A DNA stretch of 64,000 nucleotides from Nereocystis luetkeana. Its lineage: Eukaryota > Sar > Phaeophyceae > Laminariales > Laminariaceae. The DNA lies in the NCBI GenBank assembly GCA_031213475.1, contig JARUPZ010000024.1:7753324-7817323 (forward strand). Direction: 5' to 3'. Positions 1 through 64,000 of the stretch are shown piece by piece. Made by a program: the position numbers and the translations under genes. Position 1 is the first letter of the stretch. The number at the start of each line of letters is the position of its first letter. The notes under the pieces are model-generated. The model made no database searches and had not been told where the DNA came from. It worked only from the letters and a program-made list of their open reading frames with translations.

Positions 1-397
1 GTTGGGGGGGGGGGGGGGTACTCGATAGGAGAGATGTACTCGATCTCATGCATGGCCGTAGTCGTATGGGGGGGGGGGGGGGGGGTATGAAGAACCCCTT
101 CCCCCCCTTTAGTATGTCTCTCGCCAGCTCCACGCTCTCATTCAGTGCTGTCCTCTACTACTTCTGTTAAGCCAAGTATCCGTACCGACCCAAGTTGATG
201 CAACACCCCCGATATTTCATGATGCCCCATATCGCCTACGTACGTATAGTCATCGTTTTCTTCCCGAAACAAAATCAGGGTGATAATGTCATACCACCAG
301 TGTTATACCGCTGTAGTGCAGCGGTGGCGGCCAAAAGGCTACGTACGGCAACTTTGGTGTTCCTGTCCATCCCATTTATTATTATTATTATTATTAT

Positions 398-504
398 TTC
401 GGGGGACCATAGTTAATAGGACCTACGGTACGCACCAAAACCTATGTATTTCCCTATTTTTATTAACAATATTTGGTCCTATTTACTATGGTCCCCCGCA
501 AATA
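398..504. mobile_element. TA-target palindromic MITE (M1), copy 1
   Basis: Terminal inverted repeats CGGGGGACCATAG and CTATGGTCCCCCG enclose the family core. The ends have drifted (CGCAAATA on the right). Confidence 0.75.
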
Positions 505-695
505 GGCTTGCCATCCGACCATGTGCAGCATGAGCTGCGACATTGATCAATCAAAACATTCCTGAAGGAAGAAATCTCCGTATACAAAGGGAACCTATAC
601 ACAGAGTCTATATTTCTTCTATGCCTACTTCCCCTTAATATGTGTTATCTATCCCATTTGTTATCCTCGCCCTAACTCTCTCGCTCCTTTCTATT

Positions 696-807
696 CACGG
701 GGGGCCACAGTTAATAGGACCAAATATTGTTAGTAAAAATAGGTAAATATAATACCAGGTAGGTTTTTGTTTGTACCTTAGGTCCTACCCCTGGTATTTA
801 CTATGGC
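696..807. mobile_element. M1 MITE, copy 2, degenerate right end
   Basis: The left end is CGGGGGGCCACAG and the right end is eroded (TTTACTATGGCTCG). The centre carries TACCAGGTA at 753-761. Confidence 0.6.
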
Positions 808-1107
808 TCGTGCCTCGATATATGTTGGGAACTTCCGTTTCAGCGGCTTATTCACAGAGCGAGCGGACCGTGGGCGAAGCTATACCTCGGGAACAATTGC
901 TTGTCTGAGTCACCCAGTCGAGTGTTTTGATTATACTATCCTGTTGAACTTATTCGTAGCCTTGAGCTTTCATGCCCTTCGGGTTATCTCTTCGCGATAT
1001 TCACCGATCTAGAAGTACGATATCTGTTGTGCTGCGCCGACTACGTCGTATACGTTTCAAGCCCAGCTTGGAGCGGGGGTCCAGAGCTACTCGCCCATGC
1101 GGTCTTT

Positions 1108-1203
1108 AACCCCTTTCGAACCGCAGTCCCGTTTTGGGGACAAACTACTTTAAATTTGACTGGTTTGTCCCCAAAACGGGACTGCGGCTCTAAAAGAGTT
1201 AAT
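1108..1203. mobile_element. piggyBac-like MITE (M2), copy 1
   Basis: TTTAACCCC...GAGTTAA flanks the near-perfect palindrome CGCAGTCCCGTTTTGGGG / CCCCAAAACGGGACTGCG. The TTAA ends and CCC start resemble piggyBac termini. Confidence 0.75.
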
Positions 1204-1587
1204 CGCGGCGGCAATGAAAAAAAGGGAGGGTGTAAAAAGCGCTGGTAAACAGGCTTACAGAGTAGCAGAGAGGGAAATTAATTACATTTTTAGTTGATGT
1301 TTGCTTGCTTGCGTGGGCGGTCAGGGCCGACATTACACCGGGAGTGAGCCGACATCAGGCAACCCGTATCGTACGAGGCGGGACCTGTAACCACGAAATA
1401 CCGTAAAGAGCGAACAGCGTTTATTAATAGTAGTTTCGCGCAGCGGTGGTGCGATCGTTTTTTTATAGCGCCCGTTTTCTCTGAAACAGCGGTGTCAATA
1501 CGCACGTAATAAGGGTTTTTAAAAAAAAAAGTCGGAAAAATGTACCAGGGTGCGTATTTTCGGAAGCGCTCCACAGCAGCAGTAGAC

Positions 1588-1650
1588 CTTCCTGTTCGGT
1601 ATTTGCACGACCTTCCAGTTCGGTATTGGCACGATCTTCCTGTTCTTGGA
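1588..1650. repeat. 24-bp tandem repeat, about 2.5 units
   Basis: GACCTTCCTGTTCGGTATTTGCAC is repeated with few changes. It lies in otherwise featureless DNA. Confidence 0.8.
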
Positions 1651-2868
1651 GAAGAGTTGAACGCTGAAAACAGATCGCACACCCACCTCTGAGCGAAGCC
1701 GACACTCCTTACGGTGTCCCACCAAAGTACAAACACACGCGACAACAGCGCTCAGACGTGTACCATGCCTGGTACGAAACATAAAAAAAAACGAATACCG
1801 CGAGCGTCTGTGCTCCCTTTTTTCGCCGGCGATAAAAAATTACCCCCCCCCTCGCAATTCACTACCTTTATTTCGGGGCAGCGGTAGATAGAGAGAGTAC
1901 CCTCCCTACTCTGTTGGGCTAGCTAGGGTCAGAAGTTCGATCCCAGCCTTCTTTTGGGTAGCTTTTTGTTGCGTTTTTTTCCCGTTTAATTATAATAGGG
2001 GTTTTGGCGTTATGTGTTTTATGCTTGGAGGATAACAATGATATGGTACTTTCCTCATCCTGTACGCCGCTCGTGCTGAGTGATCGTGGGGCCCTATATT
2101 GTGTGGTTTTTGTGTGTCCTGATTATACTGCTGATGATGCGATGATCTGCTTGTTTTTCAGGGGATATCGGCGACTGTGTGTGGTGTGTGTGCTAATGCT
2201 GCCGCTGTGATGCCGGTTTTGCGATGCTCGGGTGGTGTTGCGTACGTACGTGCGAGTGCACGTACTGCTGTATTGCGTGGCATTTTTGTTGAGTACGCAG
2301 GGGCTGGCTGGTGACAGAATTCGTACCAGTCCCAGTATAGATTAATGTGGCAGATCCCGGAGTTCCTCGAAAACCAGCCTCAAAATCTACGCTCGCTTGT
2401 GCGTCAAGTGCGTCAAGATCTCCGCCTTCAAAAGTCTTCCTCAGAACTATCACTATTAATAATAGATGACTTTGGTGCCGAACGAAGACCTAAAAAACTC
2501 TTAGGAATCCAGCATGATGCCACCTACCTATCTGTATGGTCTGTAGCTGGACAGCCGCACTCAGCTCCCATGGTCAGCACATACATCGCTGAAGCACCCG
2601 ATTGAGACTGTCACCCAGAGAGGTGAAACATAGGGAGAGACAAGTAAGTGCGTAACTTGAACGGAGAAACAGGGCCGTTGTGGAGGCATACCTCTCTCTC
2701 TTGCCTCCCAACAACACCGTCGCCTCAAACGGGAGACTTCATTTCACACGGTACGGGTGGGAAGGTCTCTCCTCTGATCACAACGCCAAGAACAGTACAT
2801 ACATTACATGTGTCCACCACATCGATCAAGGCCTAAGCTGTGACATCATGGCTGTGTAGTACGAGCCG

Positions 2869-3172
2869 GCGTCCCCGGTGGCTTGGTACGTGGGTGACCC
2901 GCGTGCCTACTAAGATCAATCTCGTGGGTTCAAGCCTCACCCGGTCCGGGTGAGTGCATGCTCGTAGGGACTTTTTCTTGCACAAAGAAATGACCCTAAG
3001 CGGAAAGCGCGAGAGCGTGAGCTAGCTACATTCGATGAAAATCGACGAGTAGTGGGGAATGCTGAACCCTACGCGCGACGAAAAAAAAATAGAGGCATGT
3101 GCCGGGGGGGAGAAGGGACGACACCTGTGACCACGGCTTGTCCCGAAAATCGCTGAGGATAAAACCTCCTAC
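2869..3172 (+). mobile_element. tRNA-derived SINE, family S1, copy 1
   Basis: The head resembles a tRNA: an A-box-like TGGCTTGGTACGTGG and a B-box GGTTCAAGCCT. The body shares long blocks with 27291-27617 (AAGCGCGAGAGCGTGAG, GGGAATGCTGAACCC, TGTGACCACGG). Confidence 0.7.
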
Positions 3173-3289
3173 TATTACGGGGGGCCATAGTTAATAGGAC
3201 CAAATATTGTTAGTAAAAACGGTTTAAATATATACCAGGTAGGTTTTTATGTATACCCTAGGTCCTATTAACTATGGTCCCCCGTAATA
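3173..3289. mobile_element. M1 MITE, copy 3, intact
   Basis: Both TIRs are complete and the copy is flanked by TA. It contains TACCAGGTA (3233-3241) that copies such as 15893-16001 lack. It sits directly after SINE S1 copy 1. Confidence 0.85.
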
Positions 3290-3867
3290 GTTGGGCTGGA
3301 AAGTAAAAGCCATGATAAAAAAACACGCACACAAATAGCTACGCGGAGGGATGCTGAACCGGATGGGTATGCGTATTAGTGAAACATTTCAAGTTATCGT
3401 GCATGGGGCACAGATCAGATCACGATCTATCTACAGCAGATCATCTCGATCCCTAACCTGTCGTTCTAACGTGCTGTGCTTAAGGCACGTATCGTACAAA
3501 ATCAACTCGGAAAACATATACTCGTATGTATGTGCGCAAGACCCGTCCCGTACAGGTCTCCATCCACGGCACACATGGAAACAGCGTAATGAGTGCCCAC
3601 CAACTGTTTGTTGGAGGTAGGAAAAGGTACTCCGTCTCCAAAGGGTTGCGTGGTCTACGATCGGAGGACGTCCGGCGAGCAAACAAATGAGTACCCCTCC
3701 CCCCCCCTCCCCGGTACACACGGTCTACAGTACTTCGAGTAGACAATGTAAATGTGAATCGAGGATATATCTACCCCGAGAAATCTAGATCATCAAATGG
3801 GGGTATGATATTATATTATCTGATGATCGGATCTGATCTGATCTGATCTGATATGTGAGTCCTGCCG

Positions 3868-4150
3868 TCGACGCCACTTGTTAAGATCACGGAGAGCGGG
3901 ACACTTTGTATCCCTGGACAGGTCTGCCTATTAAGCCGGCACTCGTTGGTACTCACGTTGATGTTCGCTTAGAGTTAGAAGAGCCACTTTATTCCTTTCG
4001 TGCACGACGGAGACTGGGGCCACGCTCGTGCCTCTCTGGAAAACCCCTGGTTTTCCACCTAAGATACGCCTTCCAAGCACTACAAATACGATCCCAGTGC
4101 CAGAACCCAGGTAATTACCGGGCTTTCAACCTTATACAAAGCAGTATCAT
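3868..4150 (+). repeat. 285-bp dispersed repeat RC, copy 1
   Basis: CACTTGTTAAGATCACGG to ACAAAGCAGTATCATA matches 10343-10626 throughout. It leads straight into the GATCT satellite. Confidence 0.75.
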
Positions 4151-4830: not shown

Positions 4831-6334
4831 ATACCAGGTAGCGACTACTGTGAAACAACCACAACTTTGACGTCCTCGACTGTCTGCGAGCAGCCTCAGC
4901 GCCCGGCAGTACGGGTAGGATCATGTTGCGCCCCTGCGAGACGCACGACTCCTTGCACATCAACCATCGTAACTCGGGACACCAACCATTATATCCTATA
5001 ATTCCACTAATCACGCAGTGGGATTGCTGCGTTCGTCCATTTTTAGCGTCAGATTCCCTCTCTCTCTCTCAAGTCCCAAGAGGACTGAGGACACGCACGT
5101 AGGCGTTCGCAAGAAACGGAACGTCGTCCAACGTCGACGTGATATTTCAACAAACCGGAGGTCTTCTAAATCGATCTGCCGCGCACTGAACAAAGCAGTA
5201 GTAGTACATACATAACTGGTGCCACGATTTAATAAAATAGATGCCGCCATCAAACGGCAAACAGGCGCGTTCAACAACAGCAGCAGCAGCAGCAGCAGTC
5301 TAAGCGCTGATCATGGTTTAGAACACATTTTGCGGAGGGAGCAAAGCACTAATACCGTGGCCCGCACGCTCCAAATATTTACGTACGTACACACTCCCGC
5401 AGAGAGGTCCTTACGCCCGCGCTACATCCTAGTATATATCCCCAGTGCACGGCTGGAGCGCCCTGCAAATCGACACCGACTGCAAACACAATGTGTCCCC
5501 CCACGGTGATCTAAAAGTGCTCTTTCTATGGTCGTACAGCTGGGATGGATTGACCACCCTCTGGCCATGGCCAGCATCGCCGGAGCACCCGAGTGGGATA
5601 GACACGTGGGCTACACTTTTTGAGGGTACATCGTGTACCTCCGGACGTCCCCTGACGACCACAGCTCGACCCCCAACTCCTATCTACAGTAGCACTTGAC
5701 AAGGAACGGCAGAGGAGGAGGAGGAGGAGGAGAAGGAGGAGGGGTAGCGTTCACGAACAGATGGAACCGATGACACCATCAAACAACAGGACGATCGAGC
5801 TCCTCCGCACCCCCCCCCCCCCCCCCCCCCCCCCCGACCGGGGTTCCCTGCTCTACCAACACAAAACCATCCTACGGAAAACAAAAGCATACACGAACTA
5901 ACAAATACGCGGGGTTACCCGCTCCACCGACACACAAACCACCCTACCGAACATAAAGCGCACGCACACCTACTGAACACACTAACAAACACCACCTACG
6001 AACAGCAACTAACCTGCTGCACGGACATACACCATCCCACGGGCGGGGGGGGGGGGGCACCTGCTCTATGAACAAAACCTCGTCCACGGAAACGAGAAAA
6101 ACAAATCCATGCAACACCATAGCGCACATGATATATACCGTGAAGCGCTTTGGTTTTCGCACGAGAAGCACGACCGTTTCTCGGCGCTCGTTTTCTGGCA
6201 AAGAAGGGAGAAAGGGTAACGGTGCCAACGTCGAACGGATACACTTTCGGAAAGTTCTCGACCGAATAATTTCCCGAAAAAAAACGTGTTCGGCACATGG
6301 CAATCTAACCTTCCACGCTTCGCACAGATCACGA

Positions 6335-6402
6335 TCTACATGATCTAGATGATCTAGATGATCTAAATGATCTAGATGATCTAGATGATCTAGATGATCT
6401 AG
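6335..6402. repeat. GATCTAGAT tandem repeat
   Basis: About seven 9-bp units (GATGATCTA) in the 3' flank of the kinase gene, next to repeat RE copy 1. Confidence 0.8.
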
Positions 6403-6409
6403 TTCCTCG

Positions 6410-6596: not shown

Positions 6597-6740
6597 TCGA
6601 TGTTCTGTTTGAGGTGTGCGACCTTCCCGTAGCGTGAAGATCGAGCACCAAAAAACAAAATAGAAACCCCTGTGCGAGACTACCAAACGCCTTACGGCAG
6701 GTAGGCAGGTAGTTATAGGTACTGCGATACATCAATCGGG

Positions 6741-15592
<8,852 letters not shown>

Positions 15593-15892
15593 CGTCAGTC
15601 ATAGCTTTTATTTTGCATCCTCCACATTGAAGTATCAATGGTATAGTATACGTACCCGTAATAAGTTTAGACGGCAGCCATCCGCGGTCGCAGAAACGTG
15701 TCCTAAATTGGCATTTACAGGGGTAGGGGATAGGGGAAATAACATATACGGAGTACCTGGTACATTTTATGAGGCTCAGGCTCCTACTACACCGCACTCG
15801 AATATCTCGATGTATAACCCTCTGTCCCGAAACATAATGATCCCTTCTATCGGTTATTAGTATACAAAAGTTCCTGACTTTTCGGAACGGAG

Positions 15893-16001: not shown

Positions 16002-16179
16002 GTAGTATATACTATTATTAATAGTACCCGAAAAACTAAAAAACTAAATTGAGAAAAAAATGGACGCTCAACCTCTATCGTAGGTGCTCGTCTGAGCTTT
16101 ATTTTGAAGAATATATATATATATATATATATATACCTGGTACTATTAATAAGTATGGGATCAACGACAGTGGTATAGG

Positions 16180-16565: not shown

Positions 16566-16679
16566 TCACGGGGGACCATAGTAAATAGGACCTGCGGTAA
16601 CACAAAAACCTACCTGGTATATATTTACCTATTTTTACCAACAAATATATGGTCCTATTTACTATGGTCCCCCGCAATA
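16566..16679. mobile_element. M1 MITE, copy 6
   Basis: Its ends are eroded outside CGGGGG. In reverse orientation it carries the central word as TACCTGGTA (16611-16619), at the same internal site as copies 2 and 3. Confidence 0.75.
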
Positions 16680-17476
16680 GCAGGCTCTCCTCTCCCCCCC
16701 CCCCCCCCCCCCCCCCAATACGGCTCGCGCCGTCATTTTTATCCTGGACAAGACTTCAGCGCTTTTCCCCCCCTCGTCCACTCGCGTCTATTAGCGCAAA
16801 TACATTTCTTGCTCCAATTACAACTAAGTTTCCCCCAAAAACGGGAGTGGGCAGTTCAACTAATAAAGGGGTTAAGGACGCCGCCGGTCAGGTGAAAAAA
16901 ACATACTCGGACCAAAAACAGCTACGGCAGCACCCCTATATGGTGTGAGAGCGCGCGTTCAGGCCAACAACAACAAAAAGCCGTGGCTCCTGACGCCTTT
17001 CGTCACGAGAGTCACGTGTCGCGCATGGCCAAAATCGGATACTAGAAAAATACAGGGGTAAACTGTATATATGTTCGGCAAAACGGTCGTAAAGTGCTCG
17101 CGCGGGCACTAGACCGACGAAAACGCAAATCAGATACCAGATACCTCGTACCGGTGGTACATGAGTGTCAAGAGGCTCGTAGCTCGAGCCTCTGCGGCTG
17201 GGCCTACTGCTGCAAAGCTGGGCATGGCGCTAAAATATACCAGGTACTACAAAACACACACAAATAATACGACTATTAAACAATACGAGTATGTTGAGAC
17301 ATTGTACACTGGGATTGAGGCCCTATTCGCCCATGGACGCATCACAATCACGTACCGGTACCAGGTATGCAACAGGAATGCTCGAGTATTTTTCAAATCC
17401 CCCGGCGATTGGTCGTCGCTGTCCTTCGTCGTTCGCATCATGAACTGTGGCTTTCCTCGGCAGAAATGCTAACGCT

Positions 17477-18362: not shown

Positions 18363-18626
18363 TAAACCCTCTTGGGACACTTCAGAGGGAGAAGTTGACG
18401 ATAAAGAGAAACCGCGAAAAATGATCAATCTCGAAAACAAAATGGTGTCTTGACTGAGTTACAAACGCGAGGTGTCGTCCGCGACAGGATACGGACACCC
18501 CGGCGCAACACAATCTCACGTGCCCGTAATATACGGCAGGGCGCTGACGCTACTCTTGGGCGGTACCAGGTATATTTTTCTAGGTCATATATTTGGTCGC
18601 TCTCTCGGGATCCCAGAGAAGTCAAA

Positions 18627-19155: not shown

Positions 19156-19164
19156 CTGTTGCTG

Positions 19165-19199
<35 letters not shown>

Positions 19200-19202: not shown

Positions 19203-20324
19203 ACCAGCAGGCAACGGCGTGCGTGTTTGACACACCCATCTGCGCTGTACTGCTGTGGCCGGTCGCGTTCATCGGAGCCTGCGGGCCGCAATCCGCCATA
19301 TTACCTCTCTTTTCTGGTGCTCTATGTGTGACAGGCCCACTCATACCCTGGACGGAAATGTAAGGACCGTGTGGATTGAATATGAGTGCCTTAACTGCCC
19401 TTATATCCCCGACGTTTTGTGTTCCTTGCCCGAAGCACGCCCCAGGAATCTAGACATCAGACAACATGCGAAGAACACACACAACGTTGCAACCCCCACC
19501 AAGCAGCACAAGCGGCAGCGGGCTACACCACGCGCGTGTCGCAGGTCCCATCATCGGTTATCACCACCTCTCTCTCTCTGCCTCTTCTGCTATGCTGTTG
19601 TGCATGTGTCTGCGGTATCACGCACGCCGCGAAAAAAAAAACAATTTGAGTCTTCGGAATATGGTTAAATAAATGGCCACGATGCTCGATTTTTAACTTG
19701 AAGGCGCGACTTCGATCCTCGCAGAGAGTACGCATGTCTATTTTTTTCTACCTGGTACTTATTTTTTCACAGCTTTTTTTTTTCGCATATCATGTGCGTA
19801 AACCCAGACATCACAGACAGCAAACAGGCGCCTGCTACGACCAGCTGGCTACAACGCTGTGCACGCCTGCCGCCCGCCAGTGGTGCAGGAAGCAACATCA
19901 CGCGTGTGCGGTAGCTTGCCCGCGCTGTATCGCTGTGGCTTTCTATTAATATAGTGGCTTTTTTATCGGGCCCTGCGATCTGTAGAGCTGGGCGTCTCTG
20001 CTGTTGTGTGATACCTGCATGCCGCAACAGGAACAACAACACTGCTGCTGCTGCTGCTGCTGCTGCTGCAGTGCGATTATCGTGGGCAGCGGAGTGTGGT
20101 GTGGAGTTCCAGCCCCTCCTTAGGGGCATCCTTTTCTATTTCTGTAAATATTATCCCACTATTAATAGTGTACTGCTCTCTTCCGTGTGTCACGCGTGTG
20201 TGTGCGGCGTGTGCCGTGTGTCACGCGTGGAGTGCTTTCAAAGTTTTTTTTTGGTCGGCAGTCCTCGGTTTTAGCGGGAGAGGCCTTCTTCGCCGTGAGC
20301 GCCACTACAAATAAATACATGCAT

Positions 20325-20591: not shown

Positions 20592-20826
20592 AAAACGATT
20601 CAGTGTGTGTGTTCTTGACATTAAACCGTTCTTTCTACCCGTCGACATCCAGCACAACCAGTGTCCGTGCCGATTCTTCAATCCTAGAAGAGATACAAGT
20701 TATGTGGTCACAAAGCTACGCCACAGAGATACTACGTTGCCACGTGTGCAGTATGCACTGCAGTGGGCAATGCAAAGCCATGTCATCATACTAGATACGA
20801 CAGGCACGACATACGCAATCTATGAA
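20592..20826 (+). repeat. 230-bp dispersed repeat RA, copy 1
   Basis: The block TCTACCCGTCGACATCCAGC to ACATACGCAATCTATGAAAT is shared, at high identity, with 50062-50306 and, inverted, with 61911-62133. No coding function is seen. Confidence 0.8.
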
Positions 20827-24934: not shown

Positions 24935-25164
24935 TCCGTCCGTCCTATTATAACCTGGTAGCTATTAATACTGAACAGGGCTATACCTGGTATTGTAAAG
25001 CGGTATTATTCAGATATTTTATAACGTCGTATGTGATCATATTTCAACATACTACGCGTATGATATACTAACTGTAGTACCGCAGGTATGCTTTTCAATT
25101 CCTTGGCACTCCCCTGCGCGCGTCCCGGAGGGGAACCTTGTATATACGTATGGAAATGTATCTA

Positions 25165-25450: not shown

Positions 25451-25810
25451 AAATTCTAATACCATGGTATGATTAATTAAAAGTGTATCGTCTCGCCAAT
25501 TTCCCACCGGAAGCAACTTACGACGTACCAAAGCTGTACCAACCTGTCCGAAAATGTAAGGAGGTTTTGGTATTAATTTGTGTATCAAAACGCTCCTTTT
25601 TACCTGGTACCAATCTGCAATGTGTGACAGCTACGAGTAGCCCAGAGCGACGAAGCAAACTTTGCGCACACAAACTACTTGGAATTAGACTAGCATAGAT
25701 TTTGCAGAAGGAAAAAGTAGGCGAGACAGCAGTGCGGGCTAAATACAGAGGCCACGCTGGAGAGACGCGGAAGGAGACGAGTCGCGATTTGAACACCCAC
25801 AGACCCGTAC

Positions 25811-26319: not shown

Positions 26320-29300
26320 ATGGCGTCGAAGCGACGACCTCGTTCATTCGCGGCGATCGCGTTGACGGTACTGAGTTCCTTGGAGCGATTAAACGCTTTC
26401 ATCGTGCCTGCGCGACCAGCAGGAGTATCAACAGCAGCGGCTAACTCGCAACGACGACAGCAGCAGCAGCAGCAGCAGCAGTCGTGCTATGCTTCCGTTG
26501 ACAAAGTACCGGGAGGGGCGGTAGGGGGTAGGCTTGCGCGTCGGGATTGGCGAGGATGCTCAGCGCGAGTTTCGCGGCATGTGCTGCATTTGGAACCGTG
26601 AGTGGTGTAAGGTGAAACTACGTAGCCGGTTGGCGTTGACGATGACGTATCGATACATGTAGCAAGTATGGCGAAAGTGCTGAGTACGGCGGACAAAGCA
26701 GTACTTTAGGTAATATTAATAGTTACACTTTTCAGTATGCCACGTTCATATGCATGTCTACTACCTGGTGCTACTTTTAATACTGGCTGTCTACACCCTG
26801 AGCAGTTGCAAGTAACCTGAAACCTCGTACTCGTACTGGTATGTGGTACCGGGTACTGAGTGTTTTTTTTTGTTTTTTTTTGTCTCATCCCATTCATTAT
26901 CTTCGCACATCTTCTTCTCTCTCTCCTTCCAACTCGTAACTCAGATCCGGGGTCGCATAGCAGGCTCTTCTCCCCCCTTCCCGCTACGGTACGTGCCTTC
27001 AATTTTCAATTTTTATCGCGAGAAGATTTCAGCCTTTTCTTCCCTCGTCGACTCGCATCGAATTGTGCCTACCCACGCTGCAAGGCGCTCTCAACAATTG
27101 AATCCTTTTTTATTTTTTCAAATAAAGTCAAAGTCCGACCCACCTGGGGCTCGAACCCAGGACTCAAAGAAGTAGAATTCGAGGTTAACCACTTGAACCA
27201 CCGGGGCGAGTGTACAGGCTACCAAGTACCAGCTTTGTACAAGTTACAAGTTGTAGCCGTTATCGTAACTGATTCCAAGTAGTGAATAACGGCGTCCCCG
27301 GTGGCTTGGTAGGCGGTCCACGTGCCAACACGTACTCGTAGATCCATTTCGTGGGTGTTGGTCTCACCGAGTGCAAAGGTACCCTACGAGACTTTTCCTT
27401 TCACAAAAATTGACTATTAATATTAATAGCGGGAAGCGCGAAGAGCGTGAGTTACGTATTTATAGCAAGATCGATGAAGAGCAACGGGCAGCGGGAATGC
27501 TGAACCCTGTGCGCGATAAAAATGAAGGCACGTACCGGGAGGAGGACGCGGGACAAAACTTGTGACCACGGACCAGGGCTTAGCCAGAAGATCGCTCAGG
27601 GTAAGCACCTCCTGCTGAGTAAAAGGGATGATTGTGACAAAGAAATTAATGACAATCGTAATAGCGCCAGGTAACTAACGTATGAACGAGTTCCTGCCTC
27701 TTGATCGTTCGGTTCGTGCGGTCGGCAACCGGCATCTATCCGGTAGTCTGGTGGTGCCGGGTGGTGCTCACGCTGAAACACCTTCAGCACAGGAGACCCC
27801 TCAGATATGACGAGTTCACAGCTGGGCCCTGGTAGCTTCAGCCGGTACGGTATACTCGCATACTGGCCGTGCCAGATGCCTGTACACTGGACCCAGAAAG
27901 TCCATTGTTTCGGCAAAGCCGAAACCCCCGCCGCCCCCCGGCTGGTGAAGGGGACGCGCTGAAGGTGACCCACCGGAGGCTCGTTTTTTTTTTTCGAGAG
28001 GTGATTTCGCCATTAATAGGTACGAAGAGCTGAAGAGTACGTTGATTTTAGGCCATGTTTCAACGGCTGTGTATGAATTCATTGGGTGGAGTTGGTTGAC
28101 TATGTATGGGCGAATGATCTAAAGGGAACCAAGGGCCGAGTGCTTTGATGGCACAGGAGGGATCGACAGAGCTCAAGCCATGAGGAGTATAGGCGGCTTC
28201 GTCCGTCGTGCTCCCAAGTCTCCCTCCCTCTCTCTTCTGTTGCGCGTGCCCTGTCTCAGCGCCGCGCAGTTTGATCGACTCCCCCTGTAGTATGAGGAGT
28301 TACTATGTGAGACGTACGTAAATACCTGGTATCCAATACTCTGGCGACCCTGGCAGCTCCCTCGGCCAGTACAGCAGTAGTACCCACAATTCATAGTGGA
28401 ATAATGCCCGGCCCTAGCAAACTGGGGCATACACACGAACGTAAACGGTACTGCCAACTCCCAACGCCGTCTGCTTTCGCAATGACCGTGTTTTTGTTTT
28501 GTCTTCCCGTATGGACACAACAACCCTCTTGTGCCCCAAGAGAGGACCGCGACCAGGCGTTCGAACTGCTGGAGGCGTACATCGAGCGAGAGAGCGACTC
28601 GAGCGGGCGAGAGGACTACGATCGCATCAGAGGGCTGGTGCCGCACATGCGCAAGCGTCTATGGCAGGCACCCTCCAGGGAGCAGGTATCGCGCGTATGA
28701 CAGCCGGGGACCACGTACATCACAGCAGGCACTTCCTCTTCTTTTCAATTCTTGTTTTTTCCATCTCATTTTATTCTCTTCGCCCTCTCTTTCGCAGTTC
28801 AGATCCCTAGAGGGCAACATAATTTCACGGATTCAACTCTCACCGAGTGCATGCTCGTAAGGACGTTTTCTTGCATAAGAAATGATCGGCGGAAAGCGCG
28901 GAAGCGTGAGTTAGCTATAAAAGAAGGGGGGGGAAAGCCACGCTTCCCCTCTGAGACCCCTGTACCCTTCAGGACTGCAGTCCCATTGTGGGGACAAACC
29001 ACTCAAGTTCTGAGTAAATTGTCCCGTAACCGGGACTTCAGTCCTACTGTAAACGGCAATATAGAACTTGTTTGGACTATAATGTAAGTATCAAACGAAG
29101 CTTATATTCCACAACGAACTTGAAACTGTCATTTTTCCCTTGGCGGCGGCGAAAAGCGCGCAGCAGTGCGAGGGGTCAGGCATGCTGTAGGTGTGGGGAT
29201 CAAAGTCATACTTTCGCACACCGCATACCAGGTAAAGATGATCATACACCAATCCGTATTTTCCCCGGCTGGTGCTTGCTGTCGGTGCATGACATCGTCT

Positions 29301-35034: not shown

Positions 35035-35068
<34 letters not shown>

Positions 35069-37944
35069 ATACGAACAATATTACAACCGTATATATACAA
35101 TGTACAAGGTTCTCCTTCGCGATGAGGGCTGACTTGAAATCCCGGGGGTGTCCCGAGGTGAACTGGGAGTACACACACAGCTATACCAGGCGTTCGTTCC
35201 TCGTACATCCCAGCTACTCGTTCGTGGCAGCCGGGGCAAGAACGAAGGACGTAAAAAAAAAAAACGTGTAAAGCTAAAGAACAAAAGAAGTACCTACCCA
35301 CCGCGCAGGTAACACCGACCGATCAACCGAAACAGTTTTAGTGTTACAGCAGCAGTTCTATTTTTGTTGTTGGTGTTTCTCCTTTGAACGAAACTCAGGA
35401 GGAGTACCGAGCGCTCCGAGCCCGAGAGGAGTCGGAGGCTCAGTTCAAGAACAGCAAGGAAGGGGGTTACACGAGCCAAGGCTGGACACACATCCCCCTC
35501 GTGAACTCGAGGGAATGGCAGGGGCTGTACGCATCGCAACGGGCGCACTTTCCGAAGACACTGCAGGTACCTTGACATGCGTACTATTTTTTTTTGAAAA
35601 CATAGTTCAACCTGAAATTTTCAGCTCTCCTAAGTATTTACACATGTCGCGTACTGCTGTACTATCGTTCGGCCCGTTGGTTTATCACTTCGCCTGGACG
35701 CGTTCGTCCCAACGGCTATGTACCCGTCTCGCGTCGCCCCCTGATGAAACTCCGCACGTGTTTTGTGTCGTGCCAAGATCTTGAAAGACCTGGGGATCCT
35801 CGCGAACGCCCGGGCGGTGCTAATCGGGCGGCAGCGACCGATGTCGGGGATCAAGATGCACAGGTAGGCACTCGATGTAAGAGCTAATTTTAGTTTGTCA
35901 ATGGGTACAAGGAATATGAGTTGGCTGGACTTCAATATAACTATCAATAGTTGGGTGTGGCGAAGCGAGTTACCAGGTAAACCACGTAGCTGACTTTTTT
36001 TTTCGTATTACCTGACGACAACAACAAAAATTCCGAGCTACGAAAAACGTGCCAGCCGGATGCACGAACTAAACGCAGACTTCCGCAAATTACCGCGCGT
36101 AACTACAGCGGTAACCGCTGTAATACCTAGAACTCCGCAAATTACCCCCCGCGACTACAACAGTCACGCAAAGTACCGCACGCAACTACAGCAGTAACTG
36201 CTGAAATGCCTACCAGGTAGCCAACTAATGGCATATAGTCAGCCAACTCACAGCAACCCTACCGATTCAAGAGCCCCCACGGAATATGCCAGTATTACCG
36301 ATTTCTGATTTCCAAACCGCTCGTATCCCCGTATAAGAACGCTTTGATGATATCCCGGGATAAACAGCGAAAGTCGCAGCAACGACCGATATCGAGGGAT
36401 CAAAATGCCTGCGTAAATGCTGAGAATGATACCTCGTAACTAACTTCACCGGTAGTCATTTTTCGGCCAACCGTCAAAATCCAAGATCTTGCGACGAGCA
36501 TTGTATATTATTTTCATACGTACAATATCTTGATCTACTGGTAGAGATGCTGCAGATCATAGATATATATGTAAGGCAGGAAAATGTGTATGCCCAAAAA
36601 TATCTACGCATATGATAAAATAGGGATCTGTACGATCTGTCGGATGATCTCAATCGTGCAGCTCATAGCGAGTATAAGGCAGGAACCTGCATGCCCCGAA
36701 ATTTCTGTATATTGAAATCGAAACATGTATGAAGTGTCAGATGACCTAAACCTTGCAGATAACATGAGGCTGGAACATTCGTATGGCCTGAAAGACCTAG
36801 ATAATGAAATTGGGATCTGCAGGATTTGTCGGATATGTGCACAAAAAATTATGAGTGCTCCGTCTCGTCTAACTCACTGTTCCATTTTTCCTCCGCGATT
36901 GCCTGCCGCTTTTTACGCAGTGACGGGTCGAACGTAATAATCACCTGCCATTTGGGACTGGACGTCCCTGGGGACGAAGAATGCCTAATGTGGGTAGGTG
37001 TCGACATGGAGCGCCGGGCGTGGCGCAACAACAAGTGAGTGCTCTGCCCGTACGCGGATCGAATACACCGTTCACAGATCAGGTCAGATCAGATCTGATC
37101 AGATCAGACCAGACCAGATCAGATCCCCACTTCATGGTCTAGAGTTTTCGGGGGGAAATGATGTACCTTAAGCCTTTTAGGGCCGCAGTCCCATTTTGGA
37201 CACACAAAAACTACTTGGAATTTGAGTGGTCCTGTCCCCAAAATGGGACTGCAGTCCTAAAAAGGTTATGTAGAGCGCGCACATCGCTCTAGATATTTCG
37301 GGGTAAATGTTTCCCTGATTCAGTATAAATCATCTGCAAGTTCTAGATCATCCTTCCCCGGGGATATCTGTATCACGCGGCTCTTGCGCACGTCTTTGTC
37401 GGGTGGGATATATCTGTATGATGTGGCTCTTATGCGCTATTCATTTGTTTTTTTCTCCAAAATTACAAACTCACCGCTAAAGGGCTGCTAGTGAATAGGA
37501 AAAAAGAGGAAAAATACATAAATTTGGAAAAATTGAAAAAAACAAATCCTTGGAAAAATTAGAAAAAATGGGAAAAAACAGTGACTGGAATCAGCACCAA
37601 CCGCCGAGCTAAACACTGCTGACTGTTTAGTATGCTCAACCTCGCCCCCGCCCCCCCCGCCATTCCGTGGCAATTCCGCCCTCCCCTCGTCGCGGCGTTT
37701 TTGGTCTTGCCTCGCCATGACAATGATTGATGTTTTCAGGCTTCTGTGCATGGACACGAGCTACCTGCACTGGACGCGGAATAACACCGAGCAGGAGCGA
37801 ATAATCCTCTTGGTCATGGTGTGGCACCCGGACATCACGCCGAAGGAGAAGACAGTGCTCGAGTATCTGGATTCCCTCATCGAGCACGCCTCGGCGGGGA
37901 AACCCTTGCCCCTTCACCCGCCCGTGCCAGTGGAAGAATCTTAA
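26320..37944 (+). CDS. Plastid-targeted aspartyl/asparaginyl beta-hydroxylase domain protein (2OG-Fe(II) oxygenase), 8 exons, 379 aa
   Basis: Exons are 26320-26597, 28541-28685, 30207-30289, 33873-33933, 35399-35566, 35778-35863, 36921-37034 and 37740-37944; all eight join in phase with GT-AG introns. Residues 1-26 form a signal peptide (basic KRRPR, then a hydrophobic run) ending LNA|F27, followed by a transit-like region and a Gln tract (about 47-54). The family signature runs from PGLASHPWWEPDTFPW (about 161-177) through GWTHIPL to MHSDG and TSYLHWTRN. Predicted iron ligands are H273 and H322 (the family lacks the usual Asp), and R332 would bind 2-oxoglutarate; the 10-residue gap H322-R332 matches animal ASPH as I recall it. 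The ASPH family hydroxylates Asp/Asn side chains, but the substrate here is unknown. The ATG at 26320 is the first in its frame. The gene starts 185 bp from a possible divergent gene. Confidence 0.92.
26868..27212 (-). mobile_element. tRNA-derived SINE, family S2, copy 1
   Basis: On the minus strand the element begins with a tRNA-like head (27212-27138): an A-box-like TGGTTCAAGTGGTTA and a T arm CTGGG-TTCGAGC-CCCAG with a perfect 5-bp stem. A roughly 270-bp pyrimidine-rich body on the plus strand follows. It lies in intron 1 of the beta-hydroxylase gene. The acceptor stem is imperfect, so it is not called a functional tRNA. Confidence 0.7.
27291..27617 (+). mobile_element. tRNA-derived SINE, family S1, copy 2
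   Basis: This copy lies in intron 1 of the beta-hydroxylase gene. Its B-box is eroded (GTGTTGGTCTCACC). It carries two overlapping TATTAATA words (27413-27430) where copy 1 has CCCTAAGCGG, an apparent short insertion. Confidence 0.7.
28831..28935 (+). mobile_element. SINE family S1, internal fragment
   Basis: Only the block from CTCACCGAGTGCATGCTCG to GTGAGTTAGCTA remains, matching 2949-3030 of copy 1. It lies in intron 2 of the beta-hydroxylase gene. Confidence 0.6.
28963..29050. mobile_element. M2 MITE, copy 6, degenerate
   Basis: AGGACTGCAGTCCCATTGTG pairs with CCGGGACTTCAGTCCT. It follows the SINE S1 fragment in intron 2 of the beta-hydroxylase gene. Confidence 0.6.
29518..29812. mobile_element. 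TIR element M6, copy 1
   Basis: GTGTTTGCGAAGATTTTTTG on the left pairs with AAGTTCTTCGCGAACACCC on the right, with an inner TTGGGTTTCTTG / CAAGAAACCCAA pair. It lies in intron 2 of the beta-hydroxylase gene. Confidence 0.6.
29881..30099. mobile_element. M1 MITE, copy 7, interrupted by a nested M1 copy
   Basis: The left part (29881-29949) and right part (30061-30099, ending TCCCTCGCAATA) form one old copy split by the younger copy at 29950-30060. The composite ends 107 bp before exon 3 of the beta-hydroxylase gene. Confidence 0.85.
29950..30060. mobile_element. M1 MITE, copy 8, nested in copy 7
   Basis: It is inserted at TTTTAC-TA of the older copy and flanked by TA on both sides, which fixes the element ends as TTACGGGGG and CCCCCGTAA and the target duplication as TA. 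Confidence 0.88.
30414..30525. mobile_element. M1 MITE, copy 9
   Basis: The TIRs are recognisable with a 4-bp insertion in the left arm (CCATACATAGTAAACAGG). It lies in intron 3 of the beta-hydroxylase gene. Confidence 0.8.
30878..31078. mobile_element. GGGTCGG-rich TIR element M4, copy 1
   Basis: AGAGCTGTTTACGGG and CCGCGAACAGCCCT are inverted ends around GGGTCGG/CCGACCC runs. The AGGGCTGTTC-type end suggests hAT. Confidence 0.5.
31160..31266. mobile_element. M2 MITE, copy 7, degenerate
   Basis: Arms ACTGCAGTTCCATTTTTGGG and CCCAAAAAGGGGGTTGCAGT lie in intron 3 of the beta-hydroxylase gene. Confidence 0.6.
31700..32210. repeat. Local duplication, first unit interrupted by an M1 MITE
   Basis: AGACGCCTGGC, CCACGCC, CATATCACCGA and GTTGGTTTTGTCG recur in the same order in both units (about 31705-31970 and 32050-32210). 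It lies in intron 3 of the beta-hydroxylase gene. Confidence 0.75.
31800..31908. mobile_element. M1 MITE, copy 10, with empty-site partner
   Basis: It is intact and inserted in the first unit of a local duplication; the second unit (about 32050-32200) reads through GATCCTAACCGGTGCG without it. Confidence 0.85.
32408..32444 (+). repeat. Exact 37-bp copy of beta-hydroxylase exon 4 inside intron 3
   Basis: It is identical to 33891-33927 (CCCGTGGGCGCGGCAGCTGG onwards) but lacks an acceptor in front and the CAG|GTGCGAG donor behind, so it is a dead exon fragment. Confidence 0.9.
33602..33895 (+). repeat. Tandem repeat spanning the 3' splice site of beta-hydroxylase exon 4
   Basis: Three units of about 100 bp share CCGCACTGTA, GGCATGGCTCTTGATG and TTTGCAGGTGGGAG. 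The last unit contains the real acceptor (33872); the middle unit has a decoy TTTGCAG|GTGGGAG at about 33764, and the first has TTTGCGG, a dead acceptor. Confidence 0.8.
34238..34510. mobile_element. Solo arm of foldback F1
   Basis: One arm only: GGTAGCACATTTCCTCTAAA through ATTATTCATCGGGATACAGA to AGGGTGAACCCCTATCGTAG. The matching second arm is absent. It lies in intron 4 of the beta-hydroxylase gene. Confidence 0.7.
34812..34993. mobile_element. M4 element, copy 2
   Basis: The right end GACCCGTGAACAGCCCTGG is clear and the left end is lost in CCCCCCCGCTGG. It lies in intron 4 of the beta-hydroxylase gene. A strongly degraded relative covers about 33325-33560. Confidence 0.5.
36370..36440 (+). 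repeat. Degraded copy of the exon 6 end and donor in beta-hydroxylase intron 6
   Basis: GCAACGACCGATATCGAGGGATCAAAATGC resembles exon 6 bases from about 35832 (GCAGCGACCGATGTCGGGG), and GCGTAAATGC takes the place of the donor AGGTAGGC. It lies about 540 bp downstream of the original. Confidence 0.65.
37172..37269. mobile_element. M2 MITE, copy 8
   Basis: GCCGCAGTCCCATTTTGG pairs with CCCCAAAATGGGACTGCAG in intron 7 of the beta-hydroxylase gene, about 140 bp after exon 7. Confidence 0.7.
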
Positions 37945-42046: not shown

Positions 42047-59630
<17,584 letters not shown>

Positions 59631-61389
59631 GAATCACGCGAACCGCGCAACCTCCTGTGTTCGAGGCGAGGCGCCAAATCGTCGAGATGGCAGGAGCGTA
59701 TTTCGGCAGGTTGCGGAGAACCCGTGGTAGACGGCCTCGAGGCCTCGCGTGACTGTGTGCGGGGCGGGAGCCGCGTGAGCGGATCCGCGGCGCCGAGCCG
59801 TGATGGGTAGGCGACCTCGGTCCTTGGTGTGCCTTTTGGTGCAGGCGGCTTAGTTGTTCCCCTCCAGAATGCCGCTAAGGCGCGTTGGCGCCTATCCGGT
59901 ACTCTCTTGCGGGTGTGGGTCGATGCTCGAAATTTGAGGTATGTAGACAGAGAATTGCACTAAAAACAACCGTTTACCGTCGACGTTGATTAATCGGATA
60001 TCGCTGCACCTTTTAACACGTCAGGCATGCTCAAAATCGAGTAAGACCCCAGGTCTGTCGAGGGAATCGCACCGAACCGCTCGCCGTCGATTTTTATTGG
60101 ATGTAAATCACTCCGCTTTTCCCGTTTTCTCTACTTCGGTGCATGTTACCATTGATGTAGTCACAGCTTGCCGTATGGGCCAATCCGTGCACTTCTTTGT
60201 GCTGTAGTGGAGTTCGTTGCTGTATACCAGGTAGTCGATTAGACTGCAGTGGGAGATAGCGGACACACCGTTGCGACGGCGCATTTTGCAGGTGGGCAGT
60301 GTAATGGACCGTTGCTGTATATTTTCGGTCGTGGGGCCTGCGATGGTGAGGGTTTCCAGAGAGTGATGATGGCGTGAGTGATGCATGCCTGTTTTTGTAC
60401 AGATGACAAAAAAAATGAAAAGGAAGCTAGAAAAAGGGGAGTCAGAATGAGCCGTGGCATGCCGGTATAGTTATTTCTGGTTGTCCAAAATGCCGATGAT
60501 GTGCGTGTTTGCTTTGTTCTTGTTTTTGTATCCCCATCGGAAATCTGGTGGTATACAGTATTTTTTGTTGTTGCTGGCGATCGGTTGAAAAAAAGCTAAA
60601 CCTTCAGTTAGTTTGAGTGTACGCCGGCGGCTGTCGTTATGCTTGCTGCTTTTATAGTAACAGTAACTACTGTAGGACCAGACAGTGGTGTAGCTGCGCC
60701 TTTGTGGGCACACGCGGAACGGCTGTGCCTAAACAAAGACCTGCCCTGGCTGATTGAATTAGAGAAAGACGTTTCGTGCCTGCAGTTTTCTGATTGGTCA
60801 ATCTTCCAGGTCGGGATTGTCTATTGGCGGAAAATTCTTGGTCGATGTGATTAGTCGACATCCGGAATCATCGTGACCTCGTTTTTCCAAAAAAATTAGG
60901 ACAATTTTTAAAATTGGCCGTGGATAATATCAGGTCTTCTTCTGTTTCTTTGCTGTAGAACGAGAAGGAGGAACGTACTCGTTACGACTTCTGGGTTCCT
61001 TCAGCTCTCGTTCTACACCAGAAAAAAAAAAAAACTTGGCTACAGTACAAGAAACCGAAAATTCAAGCGCTTGGAACCACATTTTCAAACTTCAGCGACA
61101 AGGTCCGCCCCGAAGGAGGACACGAAAAGGGTTGTAGCTTTGGCACACTGACGGGATTGCACCAAGGAGCTTATATCCAGTCTGCCAAATTTTGGCTCGA
61201 TGGAAACGTTCGGAGCTAGAGCAGAAAAACGAAATGTCCTATTAATAAGGGAAAAAACTGCGGCAGACGTGCTTCCATTGGCTTTGTTGTCGGCACTTTT
61301 TTGTTTTGTGGGCAGTGCAACACAAGTGAGATTGAGATATCTCTAAGTAAGTAGTTATATACCAGGTACTCTATACCCCGGTACCTGGT

Positions 61390-61695
61390 ATTGTTGTCGT
61401 TGTTGTTGTTGTTGTTCTCACATTAACTCACACTGCAGTCCGTGGTCGCAGGACAGGCTCCAATAACTCTGGAGTGTGTGGAAGAAGTACCTCAAGTAAA
61501 ACAGAGGCAAACACAAAAAACAAGCATACGCACTCCACCACTGCGGACACCAGGGAAGCAAAAAGGAGACTATTAATAGCAGACAAAAACCTAAAGAAGA
61601 AGATGAAACGAAGCCAAAAAAACAAAACGAAAGAAAAACAGAAGCAGATAGCAAAACGCAAAAAAAAGGCGAAACGGACCATACTAACAAAGACA
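61390..61695 (+). repeat. A-rich dispersed repeat RB, copy 2
   Basis: It differs from copy 1 mainly in homopolymer lengths and a GTGT insertion after CTGGAG. It begins directly after TACCTGGTA at 61382. Confidence 0.75.
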
Positions 61696-61910
61696 GGTAT
61701 ACTGCATACCAGTACCGCTGCAGTTGTCCAAGACACATGTTTTCCTCTGTACCAGCACGAGGTCGTACGAGTACGTACGAGATCTGTCCAGGAAACCGTG
61801 TGTCAAGAACCTTGAAATCCTAAAATTGCCACACGGTTAAAACCGTGTGATATCATATCAGACTCTGATATGTAAACTTTATTTTAGTAATTTGGTTGTT
61901 TCTTGTCGTT

Positions 61911-62133
61911 TCACTACTTCACAGATTGTGTATGTCGTGCCTGTCGTATCTAGTATGATGACATGGCTTTGCATTGCCCACTGCAGTGCTTACTGCACAC
62001 GTGGCAACGTAGTATCTCTGTGGATTAGCTTTGTGACCTTGTATCTCTTCTAGGATTGAAGAATCGGCACGGACACTGGTTGTACTGGATGTCGACGGGT
62101 AGAAAGAACGGTTTAATGTGAAGAACACACACA
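61911..62133 (-). repeat. Dispersed repeat RA, copy 3, inverted
   Basis: Inverted relative to the other two copies; M2 copy 15 follows at once. Confidence 0.8.
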
Positions 62134-62137
62134 CACA

Positions 62138-62216
62138 CTGCAGTCCCCTTTTGGGGACACACTACTTGAACTTTGTACGCTTCGTCTCCGAAACGGGACT
62201 GCAGTCCTAACAGTTA
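62138..62216. mobile_element. M2 MITE, copy 15, truncated
   Basis: It keeps CTGCAGTCCCCTTTTGGGG and CGAAACGGGACTGCAG. It follows the 230-bp repeat copy at 61911-62133. Confidence 0.65.
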
Positions 62217-62354
62217 TAAAACAGGAATCAGGGTACGAGTACGTAGACAGGCGAAGTTGTTTCGTTTTTTTTCTGTTTTCGGTTCAGAACGAATGGTTGC
62301 TGGTTGCAGTTCAGACTTCAGAGTTGCTGACCATGGCCATATCATACACTAAAT

Positions 62355-62692
62355 CTTTTTTTTTTGCTCATCTCATTCATTTATCTTCGCACATCTTCTT
62401 CTCTCTCTCCTTCCAACTCGTAACTCAGACCCGGGATCACATAGCAGGCTCTTCTACCCCCTTCCCTCTACGGTACGTGCCTTCATTTTTATCGCGAGAA
62501 GGTTTCAGCCTTTTCTTCCCTCGTCGACTCGCATCGAATTGTGCCTACCCACGCTGCAAGGCGCGCTCAACAATTGAATCCTTTTTTATTTTTATTTTTG
62601 CAGATAAAGTCAAATGTCCGACCCACCTGGGGCTCGAACCCAGGACTCAAACACAAGTAGAATTCGAGTTTATCCACTTGAACCACTATGTC
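62355..62692 (-). mobile_element. tRNA-derived SINE, family S2, copy 2
   Basis: It is nearly collinear with the copy at 26868-27212, including the T-arm block and the body with TCGTCGACTCGCATCGAATT. The tRNA-like head is more eroded at its 5' end. An open frame over 62297-63214 is only a by-product of this repeat. Confidence 0.7.
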
Positions 62693-63629
62693 CGAAAATA
62701 TATGGACATTTTGATCCCAACATTCTATAAAAGAGGTTCTTTATGTTTAGAGACGAAGCGGTATATAGTAGTAAATGAAAACGGGATGCACATGATGGAT
62801 GGGACAGGGTACATGGGAATATCTCTCTTGTTTGCGTCTTGCTTGGAAGTTCAGAACCCCACTGCCCACGCACACGCACGTACTTCACTCACACCTCACA
62901 CCACGCACACGAACACGAAGCAAGTAGCCGCGAGCGGTGAACAACTAGCTGACTCACCAGGATTCACAGCTGTTTGTTGGAGCTGCTTGCTGCGTGTTGG
63001 TGCGAGGCTACGCGAAGAGCAGTACTATAGTAGTCAACACAACCAGCGACTGTCACGCGCAGGAGGACGAGGAGACGAAATTGTTGGAGCGCCCAAGCAA
63101 GACTTCACGCAAGCAAGGCTCTTCACATATATACAAGGCGGTCGATTGATTTCCAGGTCAGACACAGCACAAAAGACAGGTCAGGTGAGAAAAATCCAGC
63201 ATGTAATAATGTAGTCACAGACAGGTAAGATTTCGCCGGTGCTGATGGTGCTGTCAGCTAGCAGCCGCGTGTCGGTACCGATATACCAGGTACCTGGTAC
63301 GTAGCTAGCTGTGGCTCGTCGGTCGTCATGGACTCCCATTTATTGCAAACGCTTGGTGCGATGTTCTACGGGCACTACGTACGAGTAGTAGAAGTGTGGT
63401 TTTCGATTGTCGAATATGATTGTTGTGATCTTTATGGCGGTGTCTTTTTTTTTGCGTTCAACTGGCGAAGGGCAAAGGGTTCATCATATACCCTGGTAAT
63501 AAATAGCCCTAACGTACGCATGCTGCCATGCTGCCTGTTCGGCTGTAACGCAAGCGCAGCAGAAGCAGCAGCAGAGCACCAACGCTTGTGATGTATTTTC
63601 CTCGTGGTTCGAGCTATGGGTTATGATCC

Positions 63630-63970
63630 TCCCCACTTCTCGGTGTGCCGCAGCACGGCAAACTCGAAGCGTCGTTCGGGCTGTAACGGCGGCGATTTCT
63701 CCAACACGTGTTTGTACCAATTTGGTCTCGCGAAGGCATCATCTCAGAAGTGCCATACATACCTGGTATATGGCATGGCATGCATGAGACCCTCACTAAA
63801 AATAGATTGCCAGTGCGCAGAGACCTCACTCTGCGTGGTGTGCCGCAGGACGGCAAGCTCGAAGCGGCGTTCGCGGGCTAACAGCGATGATTTTTTCGAA
63901 CACGTGTCTTGTACCTGTGCGTGGTGTCTGCTGCACAGCTGCTGCAGCAGCGAAGGCGTCATCTCAAGAC
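63630..63970 (-). repeat. Duplicated exon-like block at the right edge
   Basis: Two diverged units (about 63630-63750 and 63835-63970) on the minus strand can encode LEKSPPLQPERRFEFAVLRHT and a related EKS..ERRFELAVLRHT, both preceded by an ATGACGCC/ATGATGCCTTCGC block. The shared reading frame hints at a terminal exon of a minus-strand gene beyond the window and its duplicate, but no family is recognised. Confidence 0.35.
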
Positions 63971-64000
63971 ATAAGGAATGGTATGGGACCCCCCAGGAAA

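Follow-up and report, generated by a model that had tools for sequence, protein, structure and literature searches.

Why should a single 9-bp palindrome recur throughout a stretch of a brown algal genome? The word is TACCWGGTA, which reads TACCAGGTA or TACCTGGTA according to whether its central W is A or T, and the stretch is positions 7,753,324 to 7,817,323 of contig JARUPZ010000024.1 of Nereocystis luetkeana, a window of 64,000 nt. We found that TACCWGGTA behaves like an insertion of 7 bp at the dinucleotide TA, made up of CCWGG and a duplicate of that TA. It is very probably the excision footprint, or scar, of a cut-and-paste transposon that targets TA, has ends starting 5'-CCAGG and is cut out with a 5-nt stagger.

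Abundance of the word in the window and the genome

An earlier note, made by reading the window by eye, had put the number of copies at about 40, with about 0.5 expected by chance. The window contains exactly 40 (23 with A and 17 with T at the centre), and 100 dinucleotide-preserving shuffles gave a mean of 0.45 and a largest value of 2, none of the 100 reaching 40; all 14 of the positions that it quoted are exact, as are the four tandem forms at 11764, 51213, 56600 and 63284. None of the one-mismatch neighbours of the word exceeds six copies in the window, both strands counted. We extended the string to 264 kb by adding the 200 kb upstream of the window (L009-L028). This string holds 116 copies, and TACCAGGTA is its commonest 9-mer that is not a simple sequence. 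Genome-wide (465,085,209 bases in 1,987 contigs), TACCWGGTA occurs 182,395 times, compared with 1,744 for the control, the same word read backwards.

Most scars in the 264 kb stand alone: 97 of 106 runs consist of a single unit, with T at the centre in 52 and A in 45, and the spacing between runs is Poisson-like (coefficient of variation 1.02). With long open reading frames as a weak proxy for exons, frames of at least 250 amino acids contained none of the 116 scars (3.0-3.9 expected), those of at least 200 amino acids contained six (7.8-8.8 expected) and those of at least 100 amino acids showed no deficit (59 observed, 52-56 expected). We found no report of the TACCWGGTA scar among the open-licence papers listed in literature searches. 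The double-scar pattern occurred in nine stretches of viral contigs, not above chance by a rough estimate, in a search from which records close to this genome may be missing.

Clean 7-bp insertions at TA

A partner sequence exactly 7 bp shorter was present elsewhere in the 264 kb for 7 of the 116 scars, compared with 12 of 984 TAN5TA control words (Fisher P = 0.002). This test excluded matches near the scar itself, and one of the seven partners pairs a double with a single scar. In the best filled and empty pair, 40 of 40 flanking bases are identical. The repeat RA, which the earlier note had offered as an example, bears this out: GCCACG-TACCAGGTA-TGCAG at 50204 does correspond to GCCACGTGTGCAG at 20739 and, reversed, at 61985, although both empty copies read TG where TA would be expected.

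A resident miniature inverted-repeat transposable element (MITE) with TTACGGGGGACC ends provides further filled and empty sites. Among 50 aligned copies, seven carry exact TACCWGG insertions, one of them double, and these lie at four different TAs (consensus positions 19, 59, 70 and 85); two more copies carry one decayed form of the insertion and one 6-bp form, TACCGG. These differences are of the sort that the earlier note had described between copies 3 and 4 of a repeat that it called M1. TACCCGG, also 7 bp long and with a central C, was likewise seen as an insertion at TA between repeat copies. An exact pattern match for one hot site of the MITE found 495 filled and 5,189 empty loci genome-wide. 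By hand count, the 100 filled loci listed comprised 40 with A and 60 with T. Because both letters occur, the site must have been struck two or more times, probably many; some of the 495 filled loci may stem from amplification of MITE copies that already carried a scar. The density of the MITE itself looks uneven: the 100 empty sites listed are all on contig C1, 82 of them within G000:C1:15.19-20.61 Mb, and of the nine filled sites that were listed for C1, six are likewise located past 15 Mb.

The presence of several scars inside one MITE family is what would be expected if the word were part of one longer dispersed repeat. However, 79 of the 97 single scars are neither linked to the MITE nor duplicated as judged by flank identity, the scars within the MITE occupy four different positions, and averaged flanks show a weak target preference only. 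We give this explanation next to no weight. The earlier note had named linkage of every copy to one longer repeat, and a lack of empty sites, as observations that would refute its reading; copies are not all so linked, and empty sites are present in repeats. On the third observation that it had named, equal density in exons, the open-frame counts given above bear weakly.

Target preference and neutral decay

To describe the target, we used the 79 single scars that were left after 18 of the 97, MITE-linked or duplicated, had been taken out. At -7, 132 of the 158 flanks had W (background 0.52; P = 6e-17), and W stood at position 7 on both sides of 55 of the 79 scars (background 0.28; P = 2e-14). 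T was depleted at -1 (11 of 158 flanks; background 0.19; P = 5e-5), and A was more frequent than T at -3 (56 versus 39 of 158). The two sides show the same signature and are independent of each other, the pattern expected of a dimeric transposase.

Scars decay at the rate of their flanks and are therefore neutral. In alignments of duplicated segments, with the scar centre omitted and one scar often compared with several copies, so that comparisons are not independent, scar bases differed in 7 of 248 cases and flanking bases in 111 of 2,447 for pairs 90-100% identical (P = 0.25); for pairs 70-90% identical, the figures were 25 of 136 and 239 of 1,291 (P = 1.0). In this more diverged class, the partner was gapped in 31 of 48 comparisons. 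The central letter was the same in 48 of 48 ungapped comparisons, again not independent, and this constant agreement indicates that it is inherited with the site.

These results bear on a functional explanation, in which the word is a protein-binding or signal motif kept by selection. Highly iterated palindromes such as HIP1, and uptake sequences, are known from some bacteria, and the very high copy number, palindromic form and dispersed spacing of TACCWGGTA resemble them. A selected motif should nevertheless diverge less than its surroundings, and the scar does not; its copies originate by clean insertion of 7 bp at TA, as homologues with an empty site show, and the central letter is passed on with the site. 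We consider selection very improbable.

Minor joints and the ends of the source element

If both overhangs read CCAGG, trimming before joining should preserve A on the strand that begins at TA, and so yield TACCATGGTA over TACCTAGGTA and TACCAGGGTA over TACCTGGGTA. The pattern TACCWDGGTA matched the genome 11,664 times forward and 11,654 times in reverse (controls, 1,909 and 1,920). Among the first 100 matches listed, all at the start of contig C1 and representing 77 loci by hand count, TACCATGGTA was found 17 times and TACCTAGGTA once, TACCAGGGTA 49 times (42 with a tandem array counted once) and TACCTGGGTA five times; the AA or TT form was found five times. The array, at G000:C1:1304145-1308362, has a 528-bp period and carries TACCAGGGTA in seven successive units, with one further copy upstream.

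At the MITE hot site, TACCWGG is followed by a base other than T in 295 loci. The 100 of these that were listed comprised CCAGGG (68), CCTGGG (7), CCAGGC (6), CCTGGC (8), CCAGGA (8) and CCTGGA (3). Ten CCAGGG loci were inspected: seven read TACCAGGGTA and the others TACCAGGGGTA, TACCAGGGTC and TACCAGGGAT, and recognisable MITE sequence was retained to the right in six of the ten. Together, the A-biased minor joints and the variants at the hot site suggest that the element would start 5'-CCAGG at both ends; we took the overhangs to be 3' by analogy.

For other short words in the 264 kb, signatures were computed with identical flanks counted once. TACCGGTA has 21 loci, compared with 3.2 expected, and a weak W-at-7 signature, so that only part of these loci may be scars; TACCSGGTA has 13 loci. 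TACWGTA is a form of footprint known from Tc1/mariner elements, for example Sleeping Beauty. It is over-represented 3.6 times (149 loci versus 41.6 expected), and it showed neither a W±7 signature in the 264 kb nor clearly more empty sites than controls (5 of 149 versus 21 of 974; 6 of 149 in a laxer test). We did not count it as a scar.

A proposed mechanism of scar formation

The mechanism that we favour is as follows. The transposon would insert at TA, duplicate it and start 5'-CCAGG at both ends. Excision with a 5-nt stagger would leave each side of the donor site with TA and a single-stranded CCAGG overhang. The two overhangs could then pair, CC with GG on either side of a central A:A mismatch (or T:T, with the opposite polarity), and mismatch repair would fix A or T about equally often, giving TACCAGGTA or TACCTGGTA. 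The uniform appearance of the scars would follow from the four G:C pairs that flank the single mismatch. Rarer joints, formed by trimming or slippage, would give TACCATGGTA, TACCAGGGTA and probably TACCGGTA or TACCSGGTA.

We infer from the scars that an element formerly stood at each site, and that its end sequence, its stagger and a transposase of the Tc1/mariner/pogo type were as proposed. The element is now rare or gone. The earlier note had read the word as CCWGG plus a duplicated TA, left on excision with a 5-nt overhang and a central mismatch, and had suggested as a possible source an undescribed, very active transposon with ends starting CCAGG. This reading of the word is supported by the filled and empty sites, the symmetric target signature, neutral decay, the two states of W at one homologous site and the A-biased joints; the transposon, however, was not found, and "undescribed, very active" is still deduced from its scars. 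A bolder version, which we put forward tentatively and think somewhat doubtful, is that an undescribed TA-targeting transposase lineage with a 5-nt stagger entered this algal lineage, made about 180,000 hops and was nearly cleared by its own excision, leaving a ghost known from its uniform scars; these would record in nature both the targets that it chose and how the host repaired one defined mismatched break.

If this is true, about 180,000 excision events in one genome would make target choice, re-hit rates, mismatch repair and end-joining errors measurable in nature. It would also suggest a rule, that scars can far outnumber surviving copies and that repeat annotation confined to elements misses much of transposon history. 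Scans for words of the form TA-X-TA could reveal other vanished transposons, and TATTAATA, described next, looks like a second case, one in which the source element is still present.

A resident MITE and a second scar

The resident MITE (TTACGGGGG) serves as an internal control. Its ends carry TA in the context C-TA-G, and a logo of 102 such TA ends gives C at -1 (0.64), A at -2 (0.53) and T at -3 (0.41). The word TATTAATA occurs at 43 loci in the 264 kb, compared with 5.4 expected (for example, window positions 2454, 18342 and 24963), and its logo over the 43 loci is closely similar (0.58, 0.43 and 0.47). Two tandem forms were found, compared with 0.12 expected, and the MITE ends TTAC...GTAA could leave this word on excision; the laxer alignment test found empty sites for none of the 43. 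TATTAATA is thus probably the excision footprint of the TTACGGGGGACC MITE, judging by its logo and tandem forms. Like the CCWGG scar and its proposed source, this pair has TA at both ends of the element and a scar made of end nucleotides, and here element and scar can be seen to share closely similar logos. The MITE differs in its ends, in preferring C at -1 rather than W at 7, and in that copies are still present (50 were extracted from the 264 kb). Because the logo of the CCWGG scar differs from that of the MITE and TATTAATA, it should belong to a different transposase.

Double scars and the search for the source element

Several results weigh against the excision reading, and we set them out here together with the evidence to which they belong. 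Some concern the scar itself. The laxer empty-site test was noisy (9 of 116 scars versus 58 of 1,386 TAN4TA control words); TACCSGGTA lacked the W-at-7 signature (0.44, n = 9); and the remaining four of the ten CCAGGG loci offered no shared sequence fit to be an element end behind CCAGGG. The canonical scar adds 5 bp to the duplicated TA, outside the 0-4 bp given for Passer, ZB and SB (PMC9976928).

Others concern double scars. Genome-wide, the tandem forms number 4,800 (AA), 4,739 (TT), 4,522 (AT) and 1,856 (TA), with 0-1 for the reversed controls. Because a scar brings its own T and A to -7 and -6 of its outer TA, re-hits should be more likely there; with A preferred at -3, a model of re-insertion at either TA of a scar predicts AT > AA = TT > TA, AA being midway between AT and TA. 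AT and TA do stand in the predicted order. AA and TT exceed the simple model by about half, so duplication or local re-hopping must add to the doubles. Together they number 15,917, about 12 times the figure expected from random hits on TA, as calculated from the 14,823 TAs in the 264 kb, and adjacent doubles in that string number 10 versus 0.91 expected, of which target preference explains only part. The existence of double and triple forms, and the surplus of AA and TT, might suggest that the word arose as a 7-mer microsatellite unit, multiplied by tandem duplication or slippage. Against this, 97 of 106 runs in the string are single, empty sites contain one TA and no unit, and AT exceeds TA (4,522 to 1,856), an imbalance that slippage would not predict. 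Slippage may explain part of the doubles; as the origin of the word, it has almost no chance of being right.

The remaining points concern the source element. No complete CCAGG-ended element was recognised in about 348 kb, a non-random sample that totals 355,541 bases when about 8 kb of overlap is counted, with partners looked for up to 10 kb away in the same stretch. The rule of three would allow at most about 4,000 recognisable copies genome-wide, which scars would outnumber by at least about 45 to 1, figures that inherit the non-random sample. Of 520 large insertion-like gaps between collinear repeats, one had CCAGG ends, and it proved to be an artefact produced by two copies of the MITE. 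When TACCWGG ends that lack a following TA were clustered, duplicated segments, shared MITE sequence and double scars emerged, and no element end. The inverted pair at 165944/166110 in the 264-kb string reflects an inverted duplication that surrounds a MITE; other inverted-partner matches comprised double scars and MITE copies, a simple repeat, and weak matches attributable to chance.

Transposase profiles gave a similar outcome. PF13358 (DDE_3) had no match in the genome, and PF01359 had none either, its control being likewise silent. PF03184 (DDE_1) matched 28 times; 13 of these matches, in 12 stretches, had no CCWGG ends within the 4-10 kb examined. Among them, the related loci L038-L043 are without long terminal repeats in the stretch, and L044 and L048 form a further DDE_1 group. 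L047 (409-2386) and L049 (523-2754) are complete DDE_1 elements that end in TA-CAGTACCGG, with tips TA-CAGTACCGGCCCGC and TA at both ends, and do not predict CCWGG; the insertion site of L047 is the outer TA of a TACCAGG scar. L045 and L046 have the tip TA-CAGTACCGGCCCGC at one end of the stretch only. Upstream of the window, the 264-kb string also has a tip similar to TA-CAGTACCGGCCCGC at 76842 and at 86926. PF13359 (DDE_Tnp_4) matched 57 times, and the one match examined (L052) had no CCAGG ends in 4 kb. Seven of the DDE_Tnp_4 matches, L052 being one, have an identical score and open frames of 294 amino acids (G000 contigs C10, C12, C13, C19, C31 and C1678); this suggests a recently active Harbinger-like element.

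Abundant scars with no complete copy recognised would also be expected from programmed removal, in which a domesticated nuclease excises short TA-bounded elements nearly every time and leaves a 7-bp scar, somewhat as ciliates remove internal eliminated sequences. The scars are, however, inherited and decaying, so the losses must have occurred in the germ line. By eye, the list for the window shows no excess of short paired ends, and ciliate excision is precise. We regard programmed removal as improbable, though less so than selection on the word, and continue to favour excision of a transposon.

Scar positions and other features of the window

Scars and probable scar variants are collected in Table 1. 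Among the 120 relatives listed for a reverse transcriptase in the window, the named ones, at 66-67% identity, come from Ectocarpus, in keeping with a brown algal host; the list also contains closer relatives. An ARAGORN call of tRNA-Ser (anticodon act) at 62619-62692 is probably spurious. Upstream of the window, positions 1-56683 of the 264-kb string (L009-L014) form a tandem array in which a 14.6-kb unit is repeated about four times at 92-95% identity; the array contains a satellite of about 26 bp with TATCACACGTGTGG.

Table 1 Canonical, double and variant scars in the 64,000-nt window
Positions	Feature	Strand	Context
753..761	scar TACCAGGTA	.	within TTACGGGGGACC-type MITE
3233..3241	scar TACCAGGTA	.	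MITE hot site
4832..4840	scar TACCAGGTA	.	
11764..11779	double scar TACCAGGTACCAGGTA	.	
12825..12833	scar TACCTGGTA	.	
15754..15762	scar TACCTGGTA	.	
16134..16142	scar TACCTGGTA	.	
16611..16619	scar TACCTGGTA	.	MITE hot site, MITE on opposite strand
17238..17246	scar TACCAGGTA	.	
17353..17367	TACCGG (4-nt variant), then canonical scar TACCAGGTA	.	tandem
18564..18572	scar TACCAGGTA	.	
19749..19757	scar TACCTGGTA	.	
24984..24992	scar TACCTGGTA	.	a little outside reverse-transcriptase open frame 24113-24961
25601..25609	scar TACCTGGTA	.	
28323..28331	scar TACCTGGTA	.	
29226..29234	scar TACCAGGTA	.	
29309..29317	scar TACCAGGTA	.	
33205..33213	scar TACCAGGTA	.	
35014..35022	scar TACCAGGTA	.	
35971..35979	scar TACCAGGTA	.	
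36211..36219	scar TACCAGGTA	.	
42899..42907	scar TACCAGGTA	.	
43391..43406	probably decayed double scar TACCAGGTGCCTGGTA	.	middle TA reads TG
44181..44189	scar TACCTGGTA	.	
45994..46002	scar TACCTGGTA	.	
46437..46446	probable minor footprint TACCAGGGTA	.	
48444..48452	scar TACCTGGTA	.	
48672..48680	scar TACCAGGTA	.	
50014..50022	scar TACCTGGTA	.	
50210..50218	scar TACCAGGTA	.	in repeat RA; empty copies 20739 and (reversed) 61985
51213..51228	double scar TACCAGGTACCAGGTA	.	
51930..51939	probable minor footprint TACCAGGGTA	.	
53221..53229	scar TACCTGGTA	.	
56600..56615	double scar TACCAGGTACCTGGTA	.	
60225..60233	scar TACCAGGTA	.	
61360..61368	scar TACCAGGTA	.	
61382..61390	scar TACCTGGTA	.	
63284..63299	double scar TACCAGGTACCTGGTA	.	
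63489..63498	probable minor footprint TACCAGGGTA	-	
63760..63768	scar TACCTGGTA	.	

Comparison with known transposons

The brown alga Ectocarpus has many Mariner-Tc1 families, most of their copies non-autonomous (PMC12477816); the main text of that paper does not contain the words 'footprint' or 'excision', and the sections consulted describe no CCAGG-ended family. The same source gives PIF/Harbinger elements in Ectocarpus a 3-bp target duplication, TNA or ANT. The scar does not share this trait, its duplication being TA, with T depleted at -1.

In rice, only 8 of 94 putative excisions were perfect, with nothing left but the two target copies (PMC4423477). The Passer element of the pogo group leaves footprints of 0-4 bp, described as similar to those of ZB and SB (PMC9976928). 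Set beside the excisions compared in this section, the scar described here is longer and far more uniform in appearance. Passer shares with the proposed element the TA-class cut-and-paste mode and short footprints, and genes of the DDE_1 type are present in this genome. It differs in the length of its footprints, and the complete DDE_1 elements here have the other ends described above.

The closest parallel is with Tc1/mariner elements. In Sleeping Beauty and mariner, the cut lies three nucleotides within the element, and the footprint corresponds to the 3' overhang (PMC7827188). Like these, the scar involves a TA target with duplication of TA, a trait common to Tc1/mariner/pogo and seen here for the scar rather than for an element, and it forms an odd palindrome, presumably of terminal nucleotides, around a central W that occurs in both states (40 A to 60 T among the 100 loci listed for one MITE site; 52 T to 45 A among local single scars). 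In contrast, three terminal nucleotides are left there and presumably five here, and the present scars are uniform in outcome, very many and known from scars alone. Because the footprint is longer and neither element nor transposase was found, we do not claim membership in the superfamily; the scar nevertheless works like a Tc1/mariner footprint.

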